From a virus, in the IMG/VR virus record IMGVR_UViG_3300045970_000666, positions 1 through 42,362 of that record: a stretch of 42,362 bases of DNA; one strand, written 5' to 3'. Within the stretch, counting starts at the first letter, position 1, and every line of letters starts with the position of its first letter. The notes under the pieces are model-generated. The model did no database searches. It saw nothing but the letters and a program-made list of their open reading frames with translations, and was not told the origin of the DNA. The position numbers and the translations under genes were made by a program. Shown piece after piece: positions 10,630 to 11,763 of the stretch.

Positions 10630-10984
10630 GGCCGTGCCCCATCTCGATGATGGCGTGGACTACGCATAGCAAGCGTGAGACAGCGGTATCAGCGATCTCT
10701 GCACCCTCGCGCAGGTGGTCCTTGTAAAGGTTGATTTCCTCGACCATATTGAGCAACGTGTCTGGACCGTCACCTGAGCCAAAGCCTTCTAGTAGTTGGT
10801 CGCGAGAGCGCGCCAGCGAGATCAGCATTACGCGGCGTCGCATGCCCCAAATGCTGTTGTACTCACGTTCGCTTTCCTCGATTTGCGCTTCGGTGACTAG
10901 CGCCGTGAAATCGCGTTGCGCGACTTCGTCCATTGTGGGTTCGGCGGTGGGTTTGGCGCGAGCGCGCCGGGTTTTTGCATTCAT
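10622..10984 (-). CDS. Protein of unknown function downstream of the structured RNA leader
   Basis: 120 residues from ATG 10984, which has a GGAG site 9 bases upstream. The open frame continues far upstream, but that part overlaps strong RNA hairpins and does not look like protein. The N-terminus is basic (KTRRARAKP); the middle (FTALVTEAQIEESEREYNSIWGMRRRVMLISLARSRD) and the rest are helical. Family not recognised. It is the first gene after the C4-like RNA segment and its promoter, and so the most direct candidate for control by it. Confidence 0.72.
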   Translation of the reverse strand: MNAKTRRARAKPTAEPTMDEVAQRDFTALVTEAQIEESEREYNSIWGMRRRVMLISLARSRDQLLEGFGSGDGPDTLLNMVEEINLYKDHLREGAEIADTAVSRLLCVVHAIIEMGHGHE

Positions 10985-11017: not shown

Positions 11018-11108
11018 TCCCGTCGCCAAACGGGAGGGCGGTACCGAACGGGTTGGCGAACCGGTGGAGCACCGGCAGAGCCTTGCGGCTCTCCCATTCG
11101 GCCCGCCC
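11018..11108 (-). ncRNA. Candidate C4/CI-like structured antisense RNA
   Basis: Read on the minus strand, 11108-11036 folds into a three-way junction. The closing helix is GGGCGG/CCGCCC (11103-11108 with 11036-11041) plus CCGAA/TTCGG (11097-11101 with 11044-11048). Inside are hairpin AGAGCC-GCAA-GGCTCT (11077-11092) and hairpin CCGGTG-CTC-CACCGG (11061-11075). An unpaired TTCGCCAACCCG (11049-11060) remains. This segment is complementary, apart from one bulge, to the upstream hairpin at 11179-11195 and partly to the hairpin at 11018-11035 just 3' of it. A sense-antisense-sense order is how the P1 C4 and P4 CI immunity RNAs work. Family membership is inferred. Confidence 0.55.
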
Positions 11109-11128
11109 AAAACTGGACGCACCAAACG

Positions 11129-11162
11129 ACAAAAAAGCCGCTTGCTGACTGCATAGCGGCTT
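11129..11162 (-). terminator. Rho-independent terminator in the leader
   Basis: On the minus strand, AAGCCGCT and AGCGGCTT pair (8 bp; 11155-11162 with 11135-11142) around a 12-nt loop that can itself pair TGC/GCA, followed directly by six T. It lies between the leader promoter and the C4-like RNA, so it would stop read-through from upstream unless the fold is prevented. Confidence 0.75.
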
Positions 11163-11178
11163 GTCGCCGCTCCATCCG

Positions 11179-11195
11179 AGTCGCCAAACCCGACT
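11179..11195 (-). promoter_or_regulatory. Leader hairpin, candidate antisense target
   Basis: Minus-strand hairpin AGTCG-GGTTTGG-CGACT. It contains the 10-mer GTTTGGCGAC, which recurs in the hairpin at 11018-11035. The single-stranded TTCGCCAACCCG of the C4-like RNA can pair with it over about 11 bases with one bulged T. It lies about 20-30 nt after the predicted transcription start. Confidence 0.45.
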
Positions 11196-11218
11196 ACGTT
11201 TTTTCCCGTAGCGAGCGG

Positions 11219-11248
11219 ATCATGCGCCCGGTTGAATGCGCTTGTCAA
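11219..11248 (-). promoter_or_regulatory. Promoter for the structured leader (minus strand)
   Basis: Minus-strand TTGACA (11243-11248), 18 bp, then CATGAT (11219-11224), a perfect -35 and a 4/6 -10. It would start transcription near 11212, ahead of the leader hairpin, the terminator and the C4-like RNA. It lies just after the third HNH gene and so makes the downstream half of the operon independently expressible. Confidence 0.6.
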
Positions 11249-11277: not shown

Positions 11278-11763
11278 TCATGATGCGTAGGCGTCCGACC
11301 AGGGCTTGCTGCGAACAATGCGATAGATGGTGCTTTGGCGTACGCCGAACTCCCGCGCCAGTGCACAGGTGCTGTTGCCGCGCTGGTAAGGCGTGTAGCG
11401 CCGATAGATTTCGTCGCGCTGGGCATTGGACAGCTTGGCGAGGCCATGCGCTTCGCCGCTGGCCTTATTGCCGCGTCCCTTGGCGAGCATGTCGGCGGTA
11501 TTCGCACGCTGATTGCCAAGGCTCAAGTGCGCGGGATTGATGCAGAGCCGGTTGTCGCAGGAGTGCATGACCACCGCGCCCGCCGGGATTTCGCCGTGAT
11601 GCACGAGATAGGAGATGCGGTGTGCGCTCTGGTGGCGACCATCGGCCCAAATCAACCCATATCCCGACGTCTTGCTATTCCCGCCAGTCCAGATCAGGCA
11701 ATCGCCCTGCGAAACGGCCTTAGCGAGCAATCGTTCTTTGATCGTGGGGTTCATGGGGTTCAT
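11278..11763 (-). CDS. HNH endonuclease with C-terminal helix-turn-helix (third)
   Basis: 161 residues (an ATG three codons later is possible). The HNH_3 signature is clear: AHRISYLVHHGEIPAGAVVM, HSCDNRLCINPAHLSLG, then ANTADMLAKG. The C-terminal 45 residues form a DNA-binding HTH (LSNAQRDEIYRRYTPY, CALAREFGVRQSTIYRIV). This is the layout of phage homing-type nucleases. No strong ribosome site is visible. It separates the DUF1566 pair from the structured leader. Confidence 0.88.
   Translation of the reverse strand: MNPMNPTIKERLLAKAVSQGDCLIWTGGNSKTSGYGLIWADGRHQSAHRISYLVHHGEIPAGAVVMHSCDNRLCINPAHLSLGNQRANTADMLAKGRGNKASGEAHGLAKLSNAQRDEIYRRYTPYQRGNSTCALAREFGVRQSTIYRIVRSKPWSDAYAS

Follow-up and report, generated by a model that had tools for sequence, protein, structure and literature searches.

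Between a gene for an HNH endonuclease-like protein (positions 11763-11278) and a gene for a protein of 120 amino acids (10984-10622), both on the minus strand of a phage genome, lies a leader that raises the question of what RNA it encodes and which genes that RNA might control. The DNA that we analysed, referred to here as the window, is a stretch of 42,362 bases that makes up an entire IMG/VR virus record; a complete record can nevertheless be a fragment. It contains portal and head genes and a lambda/N15-like terminase (39% identity). The sole match between its first 25,000 bases and named phages is about 100 bases long, in a KilA-N gene, to two Komagataeibacter phages. An initial annotation had described the leader, from its letters alone, as a C4/CI-like antisense RNA locus with target-antisense-target logic. 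That description stands, and we put the probability that the locus is a C4 antisense RNA module of the kind found in phage P1 at roughly 0.88.

A C4 RNA behind an isrK-like leader

An Rfam scan of the whole window gave a single match above its cut-off, to the C4 antisense RNA (RF01695), at 11114-11030 on the minus strand. The match covers the full length of the model (1-87) and scores 47.4 bits against a gathering score of 45, a margin of just 2.4 bits. It coincides with a three-way-junction RNA placed there by the initial annotation, which had proposed this model as a check, and it comprises a closing helix (P1), a hairpin P2 (11092-11077), a hairpin P3 (11076-11060) whose loop carries a segment called b', and an exposed strand, a'. 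These two labels follow the phage P1 record; a passage of PMC5320573 instead calls the variable loop a'.

We collected relatives with a DNA pattern for the C4 core. It matched 79 stretches of viral contigs and at least 119 of bacterial genomes; 80 of the latter (mostly from Pseudomonadota) were taken up. When 20 relatives were rescanned with Rfam, C4 was above its cut-off in all 20, isrK in five and c4-a1b1 in three. For covariation we used 112 distinct sequences that have a site resembling one of the two a' targets, a1 and a2, described below. Their RNAalifold structure has 20 pairs, 14 of which have changed on both sides. Paired cells make up 91.3% of the helices, against 73.2% after shuffling, and covariation scores 0.479, compared with 0.157 for shuffled alignments (none of 500 reached the observed value) and at most 0.153 when the structure is slid by 1-3 columns. 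The covariation, which had also been proposed as a check, is borne by helices P1 and P2; because the search pattern itself fixed five P3 pairs and the a' strand, the constancy of P3 and a' among the relatives is no evidence. On sequence grounds, 11114-11030 is a genuine member of the C4 family, a kind of RNA that was known previously; a passage of PMC2864571 includes both c4 and c4-a1b1 among structured RNAs.

Upstream of C4 there is a putative sigma-70 promoter, TTGACA-18-CATGAT (11248-11219), with 10 of 12 consensus matches. It had been claimed as the locus's own promoter and is present as described, with TTGAC recurring at the corresponding place in two of four aligned relatives (L044 and L071, not L012 and L051), but taken alone it is not above chance, since 3.6 promoter-like sites are expected in 8.2 kb and a consensus scan found two. 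Next comes a 5' hairpin, GCTACG-N8-CGTAGT (11212-11193), which in the predicted fold corresponds to the first hairpin of isrK (RF01394); in an alignment read by eye, relatives pair here with other bases, such as GTCGCCG..CGGCGAC in L044. A second hairpin (11192-11177) contains a1 (11189-11180), which reads GTTTGGCGAC, and is followed by b1, TGGAGC (11174-11169), and by an intrinsic terminator (11162-11131) made of AAGCCGCT and AGCGGCTT and then a run of T. The terminator was missed by our consensus scan, yet it lies where the initial annotation had it, and the 3' end of the isrK model aligns with it. Together these elements form a candidate isrK-like short RNA (11212-11131), which contains a1 and b1 and stops at the terminator. 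It scores 43.0 bits with the isrK model (E = 3.3e-8 in a search of 351 bases), below the gathering score of 50. Similarly, its layout of hairpin, a1 and b1 aligns with that of c4-a1b1 (RF03163), but it reaches only 17 bits against a gathering score of 46.7, so by score it is a member of neither family.

Codon usage in the frame that crosses the leader is non-coding (-0.20 per codon), which supports the earlier claim that coding potential is poor here, and becomes coding-like (+0.245) in the same frame from 10984 onwards. The same scores bear on the idea that the leader is simply part of a frame of 219 amino acids (11281-10622), open from an ATG at 11281 and starting on the stop codon of the upstream HNH gene, with the RNA features incidental. 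We find this scarcely credible in view of the change in codon score at 10984, the covariation of the RNA helices, and the different genes that follow C4 in its relatives.

Two antisense segments and their targets

The exposed strand a' (11060-11051, minus strand) reads TTCGCCAACC and contains TTCGCCAAC; its TCGCCAA is unpaired, with a probability of 1.00 at 11059-11053 in the predicted fold. As read from the sequence, it pairs with a1 over 10 bp with one bulged U, close to the 11 or so bases with one bulge first reported. A second copy of its target, a2 (11031-11022), which likewise reads GTTTGGCGAC, sits in a downstream hairpin, CCCGTTTGGCGACGGG (11034-11019), and both hairpins are at the places originally claimed for them. 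An a1-like site lies upstream of C4 in 76 of the 80 viral-set loci and in 66 of the 80 genome loci taken from at least 119 matches, and an a2-like site is present in 69 and 65 of these loci, respectively. The loci that have neither site (L024 and L038 in the viral set, and nine in the genome set, several of them from Actinobacteria) are probably chance pattern matches or divergent. The predicted duplex between the C4 core and its target has an energy of -35.5 kcal/mol upstream and -28.4 kcal/mol downstream, the loop being included; of 1000 dinucleotide-shuffled targets, just 1 did as well upstream and 3 downstream. Co-folding of intact C4 with either target brought a gain of only about 1 kcal/mol, so pairing must open C4 helices.

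The initial annotation had missed a second antisense segment. In the window b' is GCTCCA (11070-11065), in the apical part of P3, where CUC alone is unpaired in the predicted fold. It is complementary both to b1 and to b2, a further TGGAGC (10997-10992) in the Shine-Dalgarno region, 7 nt 5' of the ATG of the 120-amino acid gene. The locus therefore has two antisense segments complementary to a1 and b1 on one side and to a2 and b2 on the other, with b2 at a ribosome-binding site. At a single locus the b2 signal is partly a generic GGAG, and the claim rests on a test across loci. When relatives are set side by side, the P3 apical loop b' varies from phage to phage, and b1 and b2, the latter overlapping the Shine-Dalgarno site, change alongside it. 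Among 57 distinct b' segments in the viral set, the mean longest perfect complement is 6.84 bases in the locus's own b1 region and 7.02 in its own b2 region, against 3.75 and 4.21 in the regions of other loci, and the best means among 5000 permutations are 4.28 and 4.82. The bacterial genome set, with 53 distinct b' segments, behaves in the same way (6.83 and 7.15 for own regions, 3.84 and 4.26 when crossed, and 4.42 and 4.91 for the best permutations). These numbers come from one locus per distinct b', and each locus had to have an a1-like site and sufficient sequence downstream, which reduced the 80 viral loci to 57 and the 80 genome loci to 53; the test was run twice, the second time with slightly altered a-site patterns and search ranges, and the number of distinct viral loops was 58 in the first run and 57 in the second. 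The GCTCCA of the window is common to three relatives, L012, L044 and L051.

The complementarity of the a and b segments and the covariation of b are direct observations, as are family membership and the helices. They also bear on whether we are looking at a decayed, functionless C4 remnant, as might be suspected from a score barely above the cut-off and from the orphan status of the first gene behind it. We regard this as very improbable: none of the complementarities a'-a1, a'-a2, b'-b1 and b'-b2 is missing, and an HNH gene also follows C4 in L012 and L044, which have this b' too.

Genes behind C4 and the proposed mode of action

The 120-amino acid gene belongs to no family, and we found no relatives of it in PHROGs, Pfam, phages or viral contigs. 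It overlaps by 8 nt a gene for an HNH endonuclease (10629-10171; phrog_3377, 1e-33), whose product is 53% and 48% identical to the proteins encoded immediately after C4 in L044 and L012, respectively. Behind these two genes, on the same strand, a putative operon continues with a protein that has domain matches to FtsK_gamma and to the H-NS C-terminal domain (10174-9281), a second HNH protein (9302-8649), a protein of 101 amino acids (8652-8347), an excisionase (8116-7925) and, as its last gene, an integrase (7928-6975). The genes overlap throughout, save for a gap at 8346-8117 before the excisionase. We found no match to an antirepressor family in any of the seven genes that run from 10984 through the integrase, so the output of this locus differs from that of P1.

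Antirepressors are common at this position in the relatives. We scanned the gene that comes first behind C4 in 69 loci, the window among them. It matches Bro-N in 11, KilA-N in four, ORF6N in four, P22_AR_N in three and pRha in one, with possible overlap between these groups, and antirepressor PHROGs head the list of PHROG matches. Because antirepressor types lead among the first genes of its relatives, the window departs from the commonest recognisable C4 output. The 69 loci were drawn from 80, the other 11 having no usable first ORF, being cut by the end of the locus or not being C4, and the second ORF was taken for L019 and L075. We also considered whether C4 generally controls integrases and found no support for this idea: in the viral set, of 95 large proteins scanned from the 139 found in the 6 kb that follow C4 (the window's own integrase being among the 95), just 2 match Phage_integrase.

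Several features of the neighbourhood deserve separate mention. HNH endonuclease-like genes occur three times on the minus strand, flanking the C4 operon (11763-11278) or inside it (10629-10171 and 9302-8649). The protein with FtsK-gamma winged-helix and H-NS C-terminal domains (10174-9281) has partial tblastn matches in 157 phage records. Upstream, the adjacent minus-strand genes 12824-12204 and 12171-11785 both have weak matches, below the cut-off, to the same Lcl_C C-terminal domain, and their DNA is near-repeated, apparently by tandem duplication. A KilA-N/Ant-like gene (14773-14021, minus strand) lies upstream of the C4 transcript and outside it, and could be the phage's antirepressor under other control.

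The initial annotation had drawn a parallel to both P4 CI and P1 C4. Phage P1 fits better, because the order of elements and the layout of a and b match P1 one for one and the downstream target is on a Shine-Dalgarno site. In the P1 record the annotated order is a1, b1, c4, a2, b2, icd and ant1, with b2 right before icd; in the window it is a1, b1, C4, a2, b2 and the first ORF, with b2 close 5' of the start codon, as in the c4-icd-ant arrangement of RF01695, and the short first ORF overlaps the next gene as it does in P1. The two loci differ in the sequences of a and b (TTGACAG and GTTAGTG in P1) and in the second gene, which encodes an HNH protein in the window and not ant. A C4 fold with a variable target loop is also described in a passage of PMC5320573 for the group 1 C4-like sRNAs of Acinetobacter baumannii, which, unlike the window locus, occur as many chromosomal copies and are reported there as highly expressed. 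The same source describes the processing of C4 by RNase P in P1 and P7 to an RNA of about 77 nt, and the roles of its two loops.

From phage P1 and Gifsy-1 we infer transcription, processing, the direction of the effect, translational coupling and immunity for the window locus, as follows. Transcription of the leader would start from the promoter at 11248-11219. Some transcripts would stop at 11131 and yield a short isrK-like RNA with the target copy a1-b1, while those that read through would contain C4 (11114-11030), to be excised by processing. C4 would then offer b' (GCTCCA) and a' (TTCGCCAAC) for antiparallel pairing with a2 and b2, in trans or in cis. With b2 as the Shine-Dalgarno site of the 120-amino acid gene, such pairing would block initiation at 10984, and coupling through the gene overlaps would keep the HNH gene and the rest of the operon off as well. 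The block would act in the lysogen and in superinfecting phages that have the same pair of a and b. The upstream a1-b1 copy may be a decoy that competes for C4, in which case an abundant short RNA would relieve the block, as in Gifsy-1. By analogy, P1-type action, with C4 covering a2-b2, is the most likely mode.

P4 offers a different division of labour, in which C4 would act mainly on a1-b1 beside the terminator at 11162-11131 and force early termination, with a2-b2 secondary. The window shares with the P4 CI RNA and its seqA and seqC the order target-antisense-target and an early terminator; b1 is 6 nt from the terminator stem, and pairing is predicted to be stronger upstream (-35.5 kcal/mol) than downstream (-28.4 kcal/mol). 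In P4, as a passage of PMC4825925 has it, SeqA is a structural homologue of IsrK, and CI-dependent termination works through pairing with seqA and seqC. Unlike in P4 as described there, the downstream target in the window is on a Shine-Dalgarno site; as b2, it follows b' in relatives. In Gifsy-1, the effect of IsrK is reported in that source to be mainly translational, at 139-fold against 8-fold in fusions. A P4-type role for the early terminator is possible, but as the main mode of action we consider it unlikely.

Gifsy-1 itself has a C4 match at 34214-34131 on the minus strand (L204), directly after its isrK stretch. Like the IsrK, STnc1160 and orf45-anrP region of Gifsy-1 (RF01394), the window has a leader with hairpins and a terminator, a C4 match, and an ORF whose ribosome-binding site coincides with a b2 match; it differs in that its leader is under the isrK cut-off and in that the downstream gene is not antirepressor-like. 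According to a passage of PMC4825925, anrP translation increases with the IsrK mutations G28A and G31A and with C162U and C159U in the downstream transcript, and pairing an IsrK mutation with a downstream one restores the silent conformation. One sole transcript start fits the published numbering; with it, G28 and G31 fall within a1, and C159 and C162 within a'. The compensatory mutants thus fall on a1-a', and Gifsy-1 provides a genetic test of this pairing in a C4 locus. By the Rfam model the IsrK/orf45 system is a C4 locus, and the isrK and C4 families are one leader type.

The published Gifsy-1 model, as given in that passage and for a locus of the same order, assigns the roles differently: cis pairing between a1 and a' would dominate, and the short leader RNA would be a trans activator, instead of C4 being a trans repressor. 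The P1 record, on the other hand, attributes the repression of icd-ant translation to C4 RNA bound at a2 and b2. We think the Gifsy-1 arrangement of roles a real possibility for the window, if somewhat improbable; it has the same pairings as the P1 arrangement, and both may apply.

Many-copy chromosomal sets and the C4 code

When whole genomes were searched with RF01695, Pseudomonas sp. dw_612 had 42 matches and Zoogloea sp. LCSB751 had 15. Across the genus of dw_612, 54 of 59 genomes (dw_612 included) have a match, with a median of 17 and a maximum of 54. We parsed 39 of the dw_612 loci (L227-L266; L246 was not parsed, and two of the 42 matches, near contig ends, were left out), and these have 39 different b' segments and 22 different a' cores. 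Their summed complementarity of a' and b' is 12.87 to their own upstream target and 13.82 to their own downstream target, against 8.83 and 8.99 to foreign ones; no foreign target does better than the locus's own for 33 of 39 loci upstream and 32 of 39 downstream. In Zoogloea (L267-L281) all 15 combinations of a' and b' are distinct, with the own target unbeaten in 15 of 15 cases upstream and 14 of 15 downstream. These figures come from anchored complementarity runs, which we adopted after a cruder and noisy ranking by duplex energy over long stretches, in which the own downstream target came first for 9 of 40 antisense segments in dw_612 and 5 of 15 in Zoogloea. Judged from their sequences, the C4 loci of these two genomes look like a set of mutually insulated chromosomal antisense switches. 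The 55 loci gave 50 first ORFs, and the 44 that were scanned include 15 with DUF6124, four with DUF3077 and two with Bro-N. A limited literature search for DUF6124 with Pseudomonas returned no paper, and prior publication of many-copy sets is possible.

A broader and tentative reading, doubtful as it stands, would make C4 a general, rewritable antisense code of two segments, a and b, that extends beyond the phage antirepressor switch. In the window it would stand before an operon of HNH and FtsK-gamma/H-NS proteins that runs into excisionase and integrase, and the target of superinfection immunity would be excision instead of a repressor. The copies in Pseudomonas and Zoogloea, dozens per chromosome and insulated from one another, would on this view control paralogous small proteins (DUF6124 and DUF3077).

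What is unusual in the window locus is its non-antirepressor operon and the completeness of its a and b layout, and it indicates that C4 can precede genes other than antirepressors. The comparison joins two literatures: the text of the IsrK paper (PMC4825925) mentions neither C4, P1 nor Citron, yet the IsrK compensatory mutants lie on the a1-a' pairing of C4. Should the many-copy chromosomal sets prove to be functional, a library of insulated antisense switches would be available in nature. For the phage, which is uncharacterised, the locus is a likely immunity determinant, and the covariation of b', b1 and b2 would allow the immunity group of a C4 phage to be read from about 20 bases.
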